A DNA stretch of 64,000 bases, taken from the NCBI GenBank assembly GCA_017608025.1, contig JAFCGM010000005.1:1-64000 (forward strand). Direction: 5' to 3'. The position numbers and the translations under genes were made by a program. The DNA is from Candidatus Pacearchaeota archaeon (GTDB lineage: Archaea > Nanobdellota > Nanobdellia > UBA10117 > JABICX01). Positions 1 to 64,000 of the stretch are shown one piece after another. Position 1 is the stretch's first letter, and every line of letters begins with the position of its first letter. Under the pieces are notes generated by a model. That model did not search any database. It was not told the DNA's origin and saw nothing but the letters and a program-made list of their open reading frames with translations.

Positions 1-99
1 GCTTTTTCTAAAAGGGGCTTTTTTCTTTTCCGCAGCCGCTTTTTCTAAAAGGGGCTTTTTTCTTTTCCGCAGCCGCTTTTTCTAAAAGGGGCTTTGGAG
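1..99. repeat. Tandem 37-bp repeat (gctttttctaaaaggggcttttttcttttccgcagcc), two full copies plus a partial third
   Basis: Copies at 1-37, 38-74 and partial 75-96 read directly; hairpin-like TTTTCTAAAAG core as in other repeats of the window. Confidence 0.9.
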
Positions 100-2803: not shown

Positions 2804-4495
2804 TTAGGTTCTATATCGCTGTTTTTTGTAAAGATTTTTTACAGTATCCAAAGTGTCAATTTCTTCAGGTTTTCTGTCTTCTCTTAGTTTGATAAGCCGC
2901 GGAAACCGTAAAGCATATCCAGACTTATATGACGGGCTTTTCTGAATTTCTTCATATCCAACTTCAACAATTACTTGTGGCTTAACTTTTACACTTTTAC
3001 CTGATTTTTTTATAATTAGTGGTTTTAGCAGTTTAGTAAAATCTGCATAACTTATTCCTTCTTCAGACTTTTCCTTTACTCCCGTGCTCATTTTTCCAAT
3101 AGTTAAAAATTCTTCTTTTTCTGGCTCAACACATGCAAGAGTGTATGAAGTAAGCCACCCAGCTCTTTTTCCCGTGCCCCATTCCGCTCCAATTATTACA
3201 ACTTCCAGAGTTTCTGTTTCTGGCTTAACCTTAACTCCATATCCAACTCTGCTTCCAGGCTTGTATTTTGCTTCCAGATTCTTAACCATTACGCCTTCAT
3301 TTCCTTTTTCAAGAGATTCCTTGTAGAATTTTTTAGCTTGTTTTTCATTGCTAGTGATAATCTGCTTTGCAATTTCAATTTTGTTTTTCTTGCTTTTGAT
3401 TATTTTCTTAAGCTTTTTTCTTCTTTTTGAAAATTCAGTTTCAAGCAAGTCATTTCCTTCCAATGAAATTAAGTCAAAAGGAGCAATTATAACTGGAATT
3501 TTCTTAACCATTTCCTTTATTTTGTACTTTCTTTTTATTCGTTGGGAAATGTTCTGAAACGGCAGCCAATTGCCAGTTTTTTTGTCAAGGCCAATGACTT
3601 CTGAGTCAATAATGCATTTTTCAGCATTAACTGTTTTCTTCACTCTTTCAACAATGTCTGGAAACTGGTTTGTTACATCTTCCTGCCTTCTTGTAAATAA
3701 TTGAACTTTGTCTTTGTTCTTGTGAATCTGAAGCCGAAATCCGTCATATTTGTATTCAATTGCAGCAGGCTTTCCAACCCGTTCAAAAGCCTCAGGAATT
3801 CCTGAAACTTTTTGGAAAAGCATTACACGAATTGGTTTTCCAAGCTGAAGCCTGACTTTTTCAAGACCTGAATTGCTCTTCTCCTTTGCAATAACAGCAA
3901 CTTCAGAAAAATCACTAAGTAAGTCATAAGCATGCTGAACATTCTTTTTCTCAACATCAAATGCTTTTGAAATAGCATCTCTCAAAACACCAGCACCAAC
4001 ACCAACCCGAAGGTCGCTTAAGCAGGTTCTTAGAATGTATTTTGCTTCATTTGGTTTTGAATTTGATATTAGCTCTTTTAAAATCCTCATTTTTCTATCA
4101 ACAGCACCCTGTCCTTCTGTTGAAGCAAGCTTTTCAAGTTTTGAATAAACTTCTAAAAGTGAATTTGTTTTTGAAAATAATGTTTTCTGCTTGCGATTTT
4201 TAATTATTTTCTCAGCAATTTCTCCAACATCTCCTATTTTGCTCCATTCTTTCTCAATGTCTTTTATTGAAGTTCCAGTGCTTGAGCTTAATGCTTTCAG
4301 AGCAAGCTTAACACCAATTCCAAGCTCTCTTTTGTCCCAGTCTGGAAAAACCTTTCCTTGAATAAGCAAAATTATTTTCTTTAAGTCTTCTTTTTCCAAG
4401 CCAAAAATAAAATCTGCAAGAATTTCAGTTTTTTTCAAGCTGCTTCCAGTTTCTTCTAACTTTGAATAAATCTCAACAAGTTTTGAATATTGCAT
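2804..4495 (-). CDS. lig: ATP-dependent DNA ligase
   Basis: Adenylation motif EYKYDGFRLQIHK, EGVMVKN, KVKP motifs; 563 aa archaeal type. Confidence 0.95.
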   Translation of the reverse strand: MQYSKLVEIYSKLEETGSSLKKTEILADFIFGLEKEDLKKIILLIQGKVFPDWDKRELGIGVKLALKALSSSTGTSIKDIEKEWSKIGDVGEIAEKIIKNRKQKTLFSKTNSLLEVYSKLEKLASTEGQGAVDRKMRILKELISNSKPNEAKYILRTCLSDLRVGVGAGVLRDAISKAFDVEKKNVQHAYDLLSDFSEVAVIAKEKSNSGLEKVRLQLGKPIRVMLFQKVSGIPEAFERVGKPAAIEYKYDGFRLQIHKNKDKVQLFTRRQEDVTNQFPDIVERVKKTVNAEKCIIDSEVIGLDKKTGNWLPFQNISQRIKRKYKIKEMVKKIPVIIAPFDLISLEGNDLLETEFSKRRKKLKKIIKSKKNKIEIAKQIITSNEKQAKKFYKESLEKGNEGVMVKNLEAKYKPGSRVGYGVKVKPETETLEVVIIGAEWGTGKRAGWLTSYTLACVEPEKEEFLTIGKMSTGVKEKSEEGISYADFTKLLKPLIIKKSGKSVKVKPQVIVEVGYEEIQKSPSYKSGYALRFPRLIKLREDRKPEEIDTLDTVKNLYKKQRYRT

Positions 4496-6674: not shown

Positions 6675-7232
6675 ATGCTCTTTGAGATTGAAAAAAAGTA
6701 TTTGATTGAAGAGAATAATAAGGATTTTGCAACTAAAGAGTTTTACAATATTTTTGATTCAATAGATTCTTTAAAGCAATATGTTAAGGAAAAGGGATGG
6801 TGGATTTTGCAAGCATATCTTCCACAAAGATTTCTAACACAAGAAAAAATTAACTTTTTGTTTGGAAAACAGGGAATTGAAGCAAAAATAAACTTCAATC
6901 CGCAAGAGGCAAGAATAAGATATTACAAGAGAAAGCACACTTTTACACTTAAAAGCAAAGGAACTCTTGAAAAAGAAGAATTGGAAAAAGAAATAACTTT
7001 AGAACTCTTTCAGAAATTGTATGACAATTATACAGAAGGCAGAAGAGTTGCAAGGACAAGAGCAGAATTTCCTTACAAAGACCAGATTATTAAGTTTAAT
7101 GTTTATGACGATCACCCCCTTGTAATTGCAGAAATAGAGTTTGAGTCAAAATCCCTTGCAGACAAATTTCCTGCCCTAGGAAAAGACATCACAGAAGACA
7201 AGAGATATGAGAACAGAAATCTCGCAAAATAA
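6675..7232 (+). CDS. CYTH-domain protein (class IV adenylate cyclase / triphosphatase-like)
   Basis: N-terminal EIEKKYLI, ARIRYYKRKHTFTLKSKG, VIAEIEFES motifs. Confidence 0.8.
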   Translation: MLFEIEKKYLIEENNKDFATKEFYNIFDSIDSLKQYVKEKGWWILQAYLPQRFLTQEKINFLFGKQGIEAKINFNPQEARIRYYKRKHTFTLKSKGTLEKEELEKEITLELFQKLYDNYTEGRRVARTRAEFPYKDQIIKFNVYDDHPLVIAEIEFESKSLADKFPALGKDITEDKRYENRNLAK

Positions 7233-18056: not shown

Positions 18057-18104
18057 AACATATACCAAAACTTTTTAAACTGAATTTACTCATAATTCTT
18101 ATAT

Positions 18105-18118
18105 GCGTTCGTAGCTCA
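18105..18118 (+). repeat. Duplicate of the 5' 14 nt of tRNA-Thr (gcgttcgtagctca)
   Basis: Identical to 18185-18198; TATA-like tttttaaa lies upstream of this copy. Confidence 0.85.
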
Positions 18119-18184
18119 CGGCCCAAAACTGAGCCGGCGAGCTGATTACGCATGCTCTTCGAGTAGTGTAATGGAATGTGGTTT

Positions 18185-18330
18185 GCGTTCGTAGCTCAGT
18201 CTGGTAGAGCGATGGTCTTGTAATGAATTCCTTTCAAAAAGGTCTTCACCCTAAGTCTGGCGGAAAACCGATGATTCTGAAAGGAAAACTGGAAAACCAT
18301 AGGTCGAGGGTTCGATTCCCTCCGAGCGCT
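18185..18330 (+). tRNA. tRNA-Thr(TGT) with ~72-nt intron (18223-18294)
   Basis: Acceptor GCGTTCG/CGAGCGC, ASL ATGGT-CTTGTA^A-ACCAT, T arm GAGGGTTCGATTCCCTC. Confidence 0.9.
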
Positions 18331-18422
18331 GCCTTTTAGAAAAAGGCAAGTTGCCAAAAATTCTCGCTTCGCTCGAAAACGGTTTTGCAGAAGCTTTTTT
18401 TAAAAGCTTCAGTCGAGCGGAT

Positions 18423-18453
18423 GATTCCCTCCGAGCGCTGCCTTTTAGAAAAA
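18423..18453 (+). repeat. Displaced copy of tRNA-Thr 3' end plus flank (gattccctccgagcgctgccttttagaaaaa)
   Basis: 31-nt identity to 18314-18344, preceded by hairpin GAAGCTTTTTTTAAAAGCTTC. Confidence 0.9.
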
Positions 18454-21450: not shown

Positions 21451-21495
21451 CTTTTTAGAAACTCTTTTAAACTAATTTTTACACAAAAACTTATT

Positions 21496-21570
21496 GGGCC
21501 TGTGATCTAGTCCGGTTATGATGTCGCCCTTACAAGGCGAATGTCGGCGGTTCAAATCCGCCCAGGCCCA
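21496..21570 (+). tRNA. tRNA-Val(TAC)
   Basis: Acceptor GGGCCTG/CAGGCCC, ASL TCGCC-CTTACAA-GGCGA. Confidence 0.95.
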
Positions 21571-21652
21571 TTGGTTCAAAAAATGCTCAGACGGAAACTA
21601 AATAGGTTTTCTTTTGGAAACTTACCTTTTCTTTTTTGAAAAGAAAAGGGAG

Positions 21653-21669
21653 ATCCGCCCAGGCCCATT
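21653..21669 (+). repeat. Displaced copy of tRNA-Val 3' end (atccgcccaggcccatt)
   Basis: Identical to 21556-21572; preceded by hairpin CCTTTTCTTTTttGAAAAGAAAAGG. Confidence 0.9.
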
Positions 21670-25525: not shown

Positions 25526-25623
25526 GGGCGGGTAGCACAGTCTGGCAGTGCGTTTGCTTCGCAATAACTTTAACAGAAAAACGAAAAAGCAAAAGGTCCT
25601 GAGTTCAAATCTCAGCCCGTCCA
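25526..25623 (+). tRNA. tRNA-Ala(CGC) with 24-nt intron (25564-25587)
   Basis: G3:U70 wobble acceptor GGGCGGG/CCCGTCC; ASL TTTGC-TTCGCA^A-GCAAA. Confidence 0.9.
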
Positions 25624-25714
25624 CTTGAAGCTTTTCTTTAGAAAAGAAAATCTTCTGCAAAAGAAACCACTATTTGGGAATGCAAACACTTTTTTAAAGG
25701 GTTTGCCCTGGGTA

Positions 25715-25733
25715 TCAAATCTCAGCCCGTCCA
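25715..25733 (+). repeat. Displaced copy of tRNA-Ala 3' end (tcaaatctcagcccgtcca)
   Basis: 19-nt identity to 25605-25623; preceded by hairpin GCAAACACTTTTTTAAAGGGTTTGC. Confidence 0.92.
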
Positions 25734-26036: not shown

Positions 26037-26111
26037 GGGTCCGTAGCTCAGTCTGGCTAGAGCACTTGGCTCTTAACCAAGGGGTCGCGGGTTCAAATCC
26101 CGTCGGACTCG
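26037..26111 (+). tRNA. tRNA-Lys(CTT)
   Basis: Acceptor GGGTCCG/CGGACTC, ASL CTTGG-CTCTTAA-CCAAG. Confidence 0.94.
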
Positions 26112-26210
26112 CTTGAACCTTTCTCTTGTAAGAGAAATGTTCTCGAAAGAGAACGTATTATTTTTTCTTTGGGCAACTTACACTTTCTTTTTTCTAAAAA
26201 GAAAGGGCAG

Positions 26211-26232
26211 AATCCCGTCGGACTCGCTTGAA
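26211..26232 (+). repeat. Displaced copy of tRNA-Lys 3' end plus flank (aatcccgtcggactcgcttgaa)
   Basis: 22-nt identity to 26096-26117; preceded by hairpin ACTTTCTTTTTtctAAAAAGAAAGGG. Confidence 0.93.
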
Positions 26233-26418
26233 TCCCTTTTCAAAAAAGTCTTCACTCCAAAACAATTTTTGGGAATGAAATCGCTTTTACAAAGAAAAAA
26301 GCAGAATTTTTGAGAACATAAATATATACGCAGAAGAAGTTTAAAAACCTTATTGTTTGCTGATTTTTGTCTAGCGTAGTAACATAAATTTTATAAGGTC
26401 TCACAAATATCTTCTTTT

Positions 26419-55393: not shown

Positions 55394-56671
55394 ATGAAAA
55401 CAACCTTTATTCGAGACATTTTGAAAAAATCCAAGGCAGGGAAAACAGTTGAAGTCTGCGGATGGGTTTACAGAAAACGGGAAATGAAAGACAAGATATT
55501 TCTTGTAATTAGGGATTCAACAGATATTATGCAGGTAATTGTTACAGACAAGTCAGATGCATGGAAATCTGCACAGAAAGTTACAATAGAGTCTTCAGTA
55601 ATAATTTCTGGAACTTTGAAGCAAGACTTTAGAGCACCCACTGGCTATGAACTGAAAGCAGAAAAACTGGAAATAGTAGATCTTGCAGAAAGATTCCCAA
55701 TTTCAAAAGATCTTTCAACAGAATTTTTAATGGATGTCCGCCATCTTGCTTTAAGAGGAATTAAGCAGGCAGCAATTATCAAGCTTAGGTCCCAAATGTT
55801 TATGGCATTTCATGAGTATTTTCGAAAAAACAAGTTCATTGAAGCAGAAGCCCCTTCATTCATGTCTCAAGGTTCAGAAGGGGGCTCAGAAGTTTTTCAG
55901 GTAAAATATTTTGGAAAAAAAGCATTCCTAACTCAGTCATGGCAGTTTTATGCAGAGAACATGATTCATGCTTTTGAAAATGTTTATGCTCTTGCTCCTT
56001 CTTTTCGCGCAGAAAAATCCTCAACAAACCGCCACTTAACAGAATACTGGCACCTTGAAGTTGAGTCTGCCTGGGCAAACCTTAACGACATAATCAACCT
56101 TACAGAAGGATGCATATCTGCTGTGATTGACAAACTGCTAAGTGAAAATTCACGAGAGCTGGAGATTGTTGGAGTTGACAAAAAATGGCTTAATTCACTT
56201 AAGCCACCATACAAGAAAATAACATATTCAAAAGCAGTAAAAGAATTGCAGAAAAAAGGATTCAAAATCAAAGAAGGGCAAGATTTTGGAGCTCCGCATG
56301 AAAAGGAATTGGCAAAAAACGGCCCGATTTTTGTAACCCATTATCCAATGTCAATTCTGAAGTTTTACCATGGAGAAGACCCAAAAAATCCAGGCTATGG
56401 AACAAACTTTAATCTTCTTTTTCCTGAAGTCGGAGAAACAGTTGACGGCTCCCAAAGAGAGCCAGAACTGGAAAAAATAAAACAGCGCCTCAAAAAAGCG
56501 AAAATAAACCTTGGAAAATCTGACTGGTATCTGGATTCACGGAGATATGGTTCAGTGCCACATGCAGGCTTCGGCCTTGGAACAGAGCGCCTTTTGCAGG
56601 CTCTTTTGAAACTCGACCACATCCGAGACATTTTGCCATTCCCTAGGTTTATGAACCGAATAAGACCATAA
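55394..56671 (+). CDS. asnS: Asparaginyl-tRNA synthetase
   Basis: Class II motifs SFRAEKSSTNRHLTEYWHLEVE and GFGLGTERLLQALL. Confidence 0.92.
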   Translation: MKTTFIRDILKKSKAGKTVEVCGWVYRKREMKDKIFLVIRDSTDIMQVIVTDKSDAWKSAQKVTIESSVIISGTLKQDFRAPTGYELKAEKLEIVDLAERFPISKDLSTEFLMDVRHLALRGIKQAAIIKLRSQMFMAFHEYFRKNKFIEAEAPSFMSQGSEGGSEVFQVKYFGKKAFLTQSWQFYAENMIHAFENVYALAPSFRAEKSSTNRHLTEYWHLEVESAWANLNDIINLTEGCISAVIDKLLSENSRELEIVGVDKKWLNSLKPPYKKITYSKAVKELQKKGFKIKEGQDFGAPHEKELAKNGPIFVTHYPMSILKFYHGEDPKNPGYGTNFNLLFPEVGETVDGSQREPELEKIKQRLKKAKINLGKSDWYLDSRRYGSVPHAGFGLGTERLLQALLKLDHIRDILPFPRFMNRIRP

Positions 56672-56810
56672 AATATTGTTCTAATCTCTTTGAGATTGTT
56701 CTTTTGGCAACTTACCTTTTCTTTTGAAGAAAAGGCAGGGGTTTTATGAACCGAATAAGACCATAAAATATTGTTCTAATCTCTTTGAGATTGTTCTTTT
56801 GGCAACTTAC
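56648..56810 (+). repeat. Tandem duplication of the asnS 3' end: two identical 68-bp copies (56648-56715, 56743-56810), period 95
   Basis: tttatgaaccgaataagaccataaaatattg...ttttggcaacttac repeated; separator carries hairpin CTTTTCTTTTgaAGAAAAGG. Confidence 0.95.
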
Positions 56811-56974
56811 AGAAACTTTTTAGAAAAAAGTTTCATCAAAAAATAAATTTGTTTCTTTTTGAAACTTACTTGTTTTTTCTTAGAAGGCGTAGCCGCCTTA
56901 GGCTTTGCCTTAGTGGAGGTTCTTTTTTAAAGAAAGTCCTTTGAAAGAAAAGGGAGTGAGAAAGTGCAGAGTAG

Positions 56975-57903: not shown

Positions 57904-57973
57904 TTGTCCTTCATGCTGAAGGGATTTACGAGATTCGTTCCGGGGCAAACAGTGCCCGGATCGAGCCCAGCAA

Positions 57974-58110
57974 GCCCCGGTGGTGTAGTCCGGCCAATCA
58001 TTTCAGCCTCTCGCAGCCCTTTTATTGGCTTCGCTTGTGAAAAAGCACTGGCGGAAAAAATAATGCGCTGGAGAAAGCTGAGGACGTGAGTTCAAATCTC
58101 GCCCGGGGCA
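57974..58110 (+). tRNA. tRNA-Glu(CTC) with ~62-nt intron (58014-58075)
   Basis: Acceptor GCCCCGG/CCGGGGC, ASL TCAGC-CTCTCG^A-GCTGA. Confidence 0.9.
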
Positions 58111-58122
58111 GCTTTTTCAAAA

Positions 58123-58728
58123 ATGGCTAAAATAAAATTAATCATCTTTGACATTTGGAATACGCTTATGTACACACATGAAAATAAATTAGATGTTATG
58201 CTTGAGCTTTTAGGTATTGATGAAGCAACATTCAGAGATGGAATAAAGCGAATGTGTCTTTCTAAAATGTCTATTGAAGATCTTTTCTCAGAATTTACAA
58301 CAGATAAAAAGAAACTTAAAACTGCTGTTGATTTATGGATGAATGATAAAGTTACTATTTACAAGGATGTTATTCCTACGCTGAATGTATTATATGGGAA
58401 AATTAAGATGGCAATTCTTTCTAACTCTTCAACATACATAAGAGAATTTTTGAAGGAAAAAAGGATTTCTGCGTATTTTGATAAGATTTATTTGTCTGCA
58501 GAATACGGACTTCTTAAGCCAGATCCAAGGCTTTTTAATATAATTCTTAAAGATTTTAATTTAAAACCAGAAGAAGTAGCAATGGTCGGCGACAAGGAAA
58601 GCAAAGACATCGCCCCAGCCAAGCAAAAGGGAATTCTCGGAATTTTGATTGACAGAAAAAACTCAAAAGAGAAAATCCTTGCTGACTACAAAATTCAGAA
58701 TTTGAGAGAAATAGAAAAGATAATTTAG
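58123..58728 (+). CDS. HAD-superfamily hydrolase
   Basis: IIFDIWNTLMYT, AILSNSS, KPDPRLFNIIL, MVGDKESKDI. Confidence 0.9.
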   Translation: MAKIKLIIFDIWNTLMYTHENKLDVMLELLGIDEATFRDGIKRMCLSKMSIEDLFSEFTTDKKKLKTAVDLWMNDKVTIYKDVIPTLNVLYGKIKMAILSNSSTYIREFLKEKRISAYFDKIYLSAEYGLLKPDPRLFNIILKDFNLKPEEVAMVGDKESKDIAPAKQKGILGILIDRKNSKEKILADYKIQNLREIEKII

Positions 58729-58829
58729 TTTTCTTTTGGCAACTTGGGTTTTCTTTTTCTAAAAGAAAAGCCAGCTGACTACAAAATTCAGAATTTGAGA
58801 GAAATAGAAAAGATAATTTAGTTTTCTTT
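58681..58829 (+). repeat. Tandem duplication of the HAD gene 3' end: two identical ~55-bp copies, period 93
   Basis: gctgactacaaaattcagaatttgagagaaatagaaaagataatttagttttcttt at 58681 and 58774; separator has hairpin TTTTCTTTTtctAAAAGAAAA. Confidence 0.95.
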
Positions 58830-62972: not shown

Positions 62973-63056
62973 GCTAGGGTACCCAAGCGGTCAAAGGGGC
63001 AGGACTTAAGATCCTGTGGCTTAGTGCCTTCCGGGGTTCGAATCCTCGCCCTAGCA
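62973..63056 (+). tRNA. tRNA-Leu(TAA)
   Basis: Acceptor GCTAGGG/CCCTAGC, ASL CAGGA-CTTAAGA-TCCTG, long variable arm. Confidence 0.94.
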
Positions 63057-63092
63057 CTGCCCTTTCTTTCCCAAAGAAAGTGCAAGTTGCCC

Positions 63093-63257
63093 AAAGAAAA
63101 ACAACAATAGTTCTTTGCAAACACCAAAGAAAATGCTTCGGTCATAATAACCTATTTATTCGAAAGAAAAACAACAATAGTTCTTTGCAAACTTATTATT
63201 TTTGATGAAACTTTTTCTAAAAGTTTCTTTTTGATGAAACTTTTTCTAAAAGTTTCT
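63093..63257 (+). repeat. Nested repeats downstream of tRNA-Leu: 30-bp aaagaaaaacaacaatagttctttgcaaac x2 and tandem tttgatgaaactttttctaaaagtttct x2
   Basis: Direct reading at 63093/63163 and 63201/~63230. Confidence 0.9.
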
Positions 63258-63298
63258 GGGGGATGCAAACACTTTTCTAAAGGGTTTGCAGGGGTTAA

Positions 63299-63450
63299 GA
63301 ATCCTCGCCCTAGCACTTTCTCTTTTAGAAAAAGAGAACCTGCACTAAGAGAAAACTAATCTTTAAAAAAAGATGCATCAAAAATGTTTCGCTGCCGCTT
63401 AACATACTTTTCTTTTTTGAAAAGAAAATATCATCGCCCTAGCACTGCCT
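63299..63450 (+). repeat. Two displaced copies of the tRNA-Leu 3' end (63299-63316 gaatcctcgccctagcac; 63435-63450 tcgccctagcactgcc)
   Basis: Identical to 63040-63057 and 63046-63061; each preceded by a family hairpin. Confidence 0.92.
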
Positions 63451-63619
63451 GTTAAACATATTGATAAAATAAGGCAGTAATATGAATGAATAATCATTAA
63501 AATTTTTTCTAAAACAAACCAACAGAGAGCAGTTATTAACATTTGGCCTATAAATAATAAATTTGCCTTAACTCGCAGATATATCCAAGGATAGCTTTAT
63601 TTTTATTTATGTTGTACTG

Positions 63620-63901
63620 TATTACATTTACACTCGCGCGGAAAATTTTGATGAAGCATGGGTTTTAGAGTCTAAAAATGGGAGACATTTTACAAAAAGA
63701 TTCAAAATCAAAATTCCTTTTGCTTTCCAGTTTTCTATTATAGACGAAGGTGATTATTATGTTGCTTACATAGGGCACATACCTGCTGACATTAAACCAT
63801 ATACTGATTTAGAGTGCCCTAATTTGCGTTATCCTATTAGAGCTATCTCAAAAAACGGAATAAACTGGCAAAGGATTATAGAACAACTTAATGGACCATG
63901 A
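63620..63901 (+). pseudogene. Start-less open frame (YYIYTRAENFDEAWVLESKNGRHFTKRFKIKIPFAFQF...EQLNGP*), probable gene remnant
   Basis: About 94 open codons, no in-frame ATG/GTG/TTG before the upstream stop; absent from ORF track. Confidence 0.45.
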
Positions 63902-64000
63902 CATTGAGATAGAATTTATTGTAATGGTTATGCTGTACTTAAATTATTTGATGGATATTATTTTTATTAATTTTCAGCTGCAACCTATTTTTACTTTCGC

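Follow-up and report, generated by a model that had tools for sequence, protein, structure and literature searches.

Stacked hairpin insertions as the probable origin of a repeat array at the 3' end of an archaeal tRNA-Leu gene

The window analysed here is a stretch of 64,000 nucleotides, bases 1-64000 of contig C21, from a Candidatus Pacearchaeota archaeon whose DPANN genome (700 kb, 34 contigs) is 91.5% complete. Near the right end of the window an intact tRNA-Leu(taa) gene is followed by short hairpin repeats and by two displaced copies of the gene's own 3' end. Very probably, small non-autonomous hairpin elements became stacked here through successive insertions at the 3' end of tRNA-Leu. 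Palindromic repeats of small size are common, yet their movement can seldom be followed, because the insertion scars are not visible. This tiny archaeal genome preserves dozens of clean scars in which a long stretch of the target is duplicated, and this makes the insertion mechanism testable by strain comparison. The scars are found at about half of the tRNA genes and in frame in ribosomal proteins, and they show tRNA genes surviving repeated hits through rebuilt ends.

The tRNA-Leu array

The original prediction, made from the letters of the window, described an intact tRNA-Leu followed by two displaced copies of its 3' end, and this description was confirmed. The inner copy matches the gene exactly over 19 nt and the outer copy over 16 nt; the longest chance match in 20,000 first-order shuffles of the DNA downstream of tRNA-Leu was 13 nt. 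The features of the array, in order, are:

62973-63057, + strand: intact tRNA-Leu(taa), called by ARAGORN and Infernal; its 3'-most 15-20 nt are the duplicated target
63058-63100, - strand (reverse): family A hairpin element, its GGGCA(G) end flush against the tRNA-Leu 3' end
63093-63122, + strand: first copy of a 30-nt internal direct duplication, flank of the putative nested insertion
63123-63162, + strand: 40-nt spacer separating the 30-nt copies (putative nested insert)
63163-63192, + strand: second copy of the 30-nt internal direct duplication
~63199-63256, + strand: family D hairpin TTTTTGATGAAACTTTTTCTAAAAGTTTC, two perfect 29-bp copies in tandem
63257-63290, + strand: family B/C hairpin (GGGGATGCAAACACTTTTCTAAAGGGTTTGC), directly before the inner tRNA copy
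63292-63317, + strand: inner displaced tRNA-Leu 3'-end copy, 19 nt exact at 63299-63317, GAATCCTCGCCCTAGCACT
63313-63347, - strand (reverse): family F hairpin, overlapping the GCACT of the inner tRNA copy
63348-63433, + strand: rest of the outer insert, with additional short hairpins
63430-63449, + strand: outer displaced tRNA-Leu 3'-end copy, 16 nt exact at 63434-63449, TCGCCCTAGCACTGCC; 20 nt with one mismatch

The inner copy retains the T-arm GGGGTT further to the left, by way of a 1-nt indel and mismatches limited to the T-loop. A 13-mer common to the tRNA-Leu end and both displaced copies occurs at these three sites only in the whole genome. Allowing up to one mismatch, TCGCCCTAGCACT had no further occurrence across the 700 kb, and the reversed control gave none. 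Two internal tandem repeat families had also been predicted: family D indeed forms a perfect 29-bp tandem pair, and the 30-nt duplication proved to be non-tandem, flanking the 40-nt spacer. Hairpin folding is shown by the families present in the array, and its family D stretch recurs with 98% identity at G000:C8:85610-85666.

Each insertion would have opened the target at two breaks, offset from each other, with the gaps filled in afterwards. The fill-in would copy the tRNA tail from the T-loop to just beyond the 3' end, so that the gene stays intact through the copy adjoining the tRNA body and the second copy is displaced downstream. The tRNA-Leu end would have been struck by at least two insertions; inside the inner insert, one more insertion would have given the 30-nt duplication, and family D would once have been doubled locally in tandem. 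Of the two displaced copies, the inner (63299-63317) is probably the younger and the outer (63430-63449) the older, because the outer copy has a mismatch and is followed by TGTTAAACATATTG, read as the original flank of tRNA-Leu. We infer staggered opening with fill-in, a natural source of such duplications, as well as the order of events and one process behind all the families.

Scars at other tRNA genes

The all-tRNA scan revealed exact tail copies 80-240 bp downstream of many tRNA genes, with hairpin inserts in between. Single-step states were found in the same genome at the tRNAs Val-tac, Lys-ctt, Leu-aag, Leu-caa and Met, and at tRNA Lys-ttt a second displaced copy is also present. Scarred tRNA genes in the window include:

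21495-21669, + strand: tRNA-Val(tac), single insertion, 80-nt insert and 17-nt 3'-end copy
26037-26232, + strand: tRNA-Lys(ctt), single insertion, 93-nt insert with family A at its end and 22-nt copy
25526-25733, + strand: intron-containing tRNA, single insertion, 91-nt insert with family C at its end and 19-nt copy
18104-18453, + strand: tRNA 18185-18330, scarred on either side: upstream a 15-nt copy of the 5' end (18104), downstream a 31-nt copy of the 3' end (18423)

A copy of the gene's own tail within 400 bp downstream, at a Smith-Waterman score of at least 24, was found for 14 of the 30 tRNA genes. By the same measure it was found for one of 44 tRNAs in three relatives, that one being a T-arm match (GGGTTCAAATCC) only, and for 5 of 180 pairs in which tail and flank were taken from different tRNAs (Fisher p = 4e-6 and 5e-10, respectively). 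At a score of 20 the counts were 16/30, 1/44 and 10/180. These statistics use Infernal calls; ARAGORN with introns missed some tRNAs. The relatives sampled here and below are from other genera, and parts of their genomes were read.

The single-step states at other tRNAs, and the composition of the inserts from dispersed families, bear out the successive insertion that had been proposed for tRNA-Leu. An identical array conserved in relatives, named beforehand as the outcome that would speak for a fixed structure, was not found, and the orthologous tRNA-Leu genes of other genera have no displaced copies. A fixed functional 3' structure of tRNA-Leu, serving as a terminator or as a processing or regulatory array, would agree with the hairpins that stand behind many genes of this genome. 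However, the insert families and their order differ from tRNA to tRNA, no array lies behind the orthologous tRNA-Leu of relatives, and copies sit in frame inside ribosomal proteins. Such a structure is extremely improbable as the explanation.

Among the tRNA 3' events, every exact duplication found with unlimited extension starts in the T-loop, 16-20 nt short of the tRNA end; the other edge ranges from roughly the end of the tRNA to 37 nt past it. The mirror-image scar, with a copy of the 5' end upstream, was found at two tRNAs in the alignment scan and also at one tRNA that lies at the end of contig C25. In these three 5' events the duplication, by inspection, stops at about positions 14-17, in the D-loop.

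Scars at protein genes

The prediction had spoken of element insertions at tRNA-Leu. That reading is supported, but the elements are hairpin repeats of 25-110 bp and not integrative elements, and the events are genome-wide and at other sites as well as tRNAs. Two protein-gene ends in the window carry them:

56648-56830, + strand: asnS 3' end and trailer, 68-nt duplication surrounding a family A hairpin
58681-58829, + strand: HAD-like gene 3' end, 56-nt duplication surrounding a 37-nt hairpin

Elsewhere protein-gene ends are present in three or four copies, for example at C26:143207 and C28:106916. Family G stands in frame in the tails of the ribosomal proteins eL19 and uL24 (G000:C8:23177-23299 and 26291-26410), and in both cases 27-30 nt are duplicated. 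The uL24 tail reads RKQAIEKSS-insert-RKQAIEKSS, that is ...DKKRKQAIEKSS-QSKSYRAKGEDSASVGPFAGRT-RKQAIEKSS..., with family G between the copies; in 13 relatives uL24 either stops shortly after the position of the first copy or has a tail unrelated to this one. A further in-frame family G insert, accompanied by a 19-nt duplication in which MAKHRK is repeated, stands at the start of a CopG-like protein (G000:C8:98330-98426).

Clean insertions are flanked by direct target duplications of 15-70 nt. Duplications of at least 18 nt, 38-250 bp apart and outside the interiors of open reading frames (ORFs), number 90 in the 700 kb of this genome and, by the same criteria, 3 in 305 kb from four relatives. 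Some of the pairs listed by the scan for clean events are low-complexity or tandem repeats and not insertions.

Such scars might also arise by tandem duplication or template switching: replication would stall at a hairpin, the nascent strand would slip back and copy the gene tail a second time, and the hairpins would be no more than passengers. Exact tandem units are indeed present, at C26:143207 (85 bp), at C8:58566 (79 bp), in the family D pair (29 bp) and in the family E units at window positions 1-95, and the family E events repeat element plus flank. But tandem duplication predicts that the sequence after the second copy resembles the start of the insert, and in most events this resemblance is absent; in clean events such as Val-tac, Lys-ctt and C28:46679, each consisting of copy, hairpin insert and copy, the DNA after the second copy is unlike the insert. 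Insertion is favored for this reason. The inserts, moreover, belong to dispersed families that are found at unrelated sites. As the source of the array this process is unlikely.

Hairpin families across the genome

The dispersed hairpin repeats, about 25-65 nt long, form six families with about 200 copies in the 700-kb genome. The numbers of matches are 58 for family A, 25 for B/C, 28 for D, 48 for E, 19 for F and 26 for G. In parts of four relatives, families A, BC, E and G gave 0-1 match per relative, and family D recurred in two relatives and family F in one.

The bases of the first-hairpin loop of family G can pair with downstream bases; this conserved pairing scores 0.778, which exceeds all of 2,000 shuffles of the arms (mean 0.593, maximum 0.764) and so suggests that this family may form a pseudoknot. 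Families E and BC gave no significant result in the same kind of test, in which the family E pattern allowed several registers. By eye only, family E has the complementary arm pairs CAGC/GCTG, GAGC/GCTC, GAAC/GTTC and GGAC/GTCC. Rfam identified tRNAs only in the window at the gathering cut-off, and nothing in one family G copy at E values up to 1.

Additional copies were seen outside this genome. Several occurrences of family D, identical over 32-33 bp, lie near 7091, 12066, 12121 and 13104 of locus L127 (G003:C56), from a genome that belongs to the same order but to a different family. Repeats resembling family F, at 83-90% identity, are present in several copies in a genome of the same class (the G025 loci), with no long duplications in the parts read. 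Families A and G have no exact core match on viral contigs. An exact 27-nt match to family D lies at 4384-4410 of one viral contig, IMGVR_UViG_3300045557_000076, 7 nt past an ORF and close to a probable MCM helicase gene; this contig is a possible carrier of family D.

At the contig end, window positions 1-95 consist of 2.6 perfect 37-bp tandem copies of the family E hairpin. The same 37-bp unit begins contig C8 and recurs at C28:80809. Because it sits at the contig end of the window and at the start of C8, family E repeats may break the assembly.

Mobilizing machinery and mechanism

No profile match was found in the 91.5% complete genome to the Y1 transposase (PF01797, Y1_Tnp) or to Cas1 (PF01867). 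Reverse transcriptase (PF00078) also gave no profile match; such an enzyme could be unassembled, divergent, or supplied by a host or element. The Phage_integrase profile matched at C8:80725 and C24:3010 only, corresponding to one full-length tyrosine recombinase and a fragment on a 7-kb contig. The full-length protein is XerA-like, by its size and its presence in most relatives.

These searches bear on two further explanations. In the first, degraded integrative elements, remnants of proviruses or plasmids, were stacked at the tRNA by tyrosine integrases that left attachment-site copies behind. Archaeal integrases classically target tRNA 3' ends and the T-loop and leave partial tRNA copies (PMC8371274; PMC9897764). 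The copies here begin in the T-loop, and a displaced tRNA 3' end stands at the far side, as in a genomic island. Unlike an island, however, the inserts are 47-240 bp of hairpin repeats only, with neither integrase genes nor remnants. Scars of this kind also mark the ends of protein genes and lie within coding sequences, and the XerA-like enzyme and the fragment were the only Phage_integrase matches in the 91.5% complete genome. Integrase action is therefore very unlikely.

In the second, a casposon- or CRISPR (clustered regularly interspaced short palindromic repeats)-like integration by Cas1 duplicated the tRNA end at every addition. The casposase of Aciduliprofundum duplicates 14-15 bp when it inserts next to the 3' end of tRNA-Pro, and it reads TCAAATC, which lies 8 bp upstream of the segment that is duplicated (PMC6614799). 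The present scars share with it a target duplicated at the tRNA 3' end, T-loop sequence near the site and an array-like layout. In contrast, the Cas1 Pfam profile is unmatched in this genome, the duplications of 15-70 nt have no fixed length and start in the T-loop and not 8 bp past a TCAAATC motif, and targets other than tRNAs are common. There is hardly any likelihood that Cas1 built the array.

Insertion of hairpin elements is thus preferred, and the shape of the scars gives some indication of how it may have occurred. In about 10 events the GGCAG/GGGAG end of family A, by eye, either abuts the duplication or is 1 nt away from it. Capture of a hairpin copy at a break, as single-stranded DNA or reverse-transcribed RNA, suits the scars better than a DNA transposase with a fixed stagger, because the length of the duplication varies and one end of the hairpin is flush while the opposite end is ragged. 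A more specific form is that transposase-less, mobile structured hairpins are retrocopied or captured at breaks, with one of the breaks at a tRNA falling in the T-loop (the D-loop at 5' ends); this form is doubtful. The duplicated tRNA tail may itself be an RNA copy, made by reverse transcription of a pre-tRNA that halts or errs at modified T-loop bases. The idea comes from several displaced tRNA copies that, by eye, keep the T-arm GGGTT intact and are changed only in the loop, and these serve as a lead only.

A number of observations weigh against successive insertion of one kind of element. The duplications span 15-70 nt, a range wider than for any single transposase that we know of. At C26:143207 and C8:58566 the unit of copy plus element is repeated exactly in tandem, from which it follows that local recombination or slippage also acts. 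In the family E events both copies start within the element's own tail, and tandem duplication of element plus flank fits these as well as insertion does. A preference for hairpin loops at the duplication edges fails across all events (p 0.7), and the T-loop clustering is for that reason kept as a property of tRNA targets and not generalized. No mobilizing enzyme was found among the four families searched, which did not include DDE transposases, in an assembly that may lack about 8% of the genome. The comparison is with genomes of other genera, read in part.

Comparison with known systems

The Rickettsia palindromic elements (RPE) are palindromes that can transpose and that occur in coding sequence, according to PMC6649704, which refers to Ogata 2000 and 2002. 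The present elements resemble RPE in habit: both are small palindromes dispersed in a reduced genome (here ~200 copies in six families) and both insert in frame in protein genes, here, as known from sequence alone, the uL24 and eL19 tails and the CopG-like protein. They differ in scar and arrangement. The units here are shorter (25-65 nt), several distinct families are active together, and clean copies are bounded by 15-70-nt target duplications and stack in a CRISPR-like manner into arrays at tRNA ends. The likeness is one of behavior and would not make them members of RPE. To our knowledge, the mechanism that mobilizes RPE has not been established.

Repetitive extragenic palindromic (REP) elements and REPINs, which have RAYT (Y1) transposases, are 20-40-bp extragenic palindromes in many copies (PMC3733652). 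The many-copy short palindromes are a likeness and the lack of a Y1_Tnp match in this genome a difference. REP elements are, as far as we know, without target duplications. Archaeal miniature inverted-repeat transposable elements (MITEs), for example SMN1 and SM3A of Sulfolobus, are likewise non-autonomous, short, dispersed and without an ORF. In the present elements, however, the hairpin spans most of the element and the target duplications are long and variable, not short and constant; no partner insertion sequence was found by the Y1_Tnp, RVT_1, Cas1 and Phage_integrase profiles, a set in which DDE was not searched.

Variable-length duplications and one precise element end are the mark of retroposons like the short interspersed nuclear elements. 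The duplications here do vary in length; a flush end is seen by eye in about 10 family A events, and PF00078 is unmatched. Organelle hairpin elements, such as the palindromes of Magnusiomyces mitochondria and the mobile DNA of yeast mitochondria, are similar as short hairpins invading genes and intergenic DNA and different in being organellar; they are likened by description, as given in PMC6649704 and PMC4478555.

Other features of the window

The AsnRS encoded by the scarred asnS gene is nearest, among the named records found, to that of Candidatus Micrarchaeota archaeon B47_G15 (55% identity), which by itself would point to a probably Micrarchaeota-like member of DPANN. After tRNA-Arg(tcg), window positions 57905-58060 contain an apparent second tRNA (GCCCCGGTGGTGTAGTCCGG ... 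GAGTTCAAATCTCGCCCGGGGCA) split by an intron-like stretch, which was called by neither ARAGORN (default) nor Infernal. Behind the tRNA-Leu array, an open frame at 63590-63902 has no normal start codon and ends ...KPYTDLECPNLRYPIRAISKNGINWQRIIEQLNGP; it is perhaps a decayed gene.
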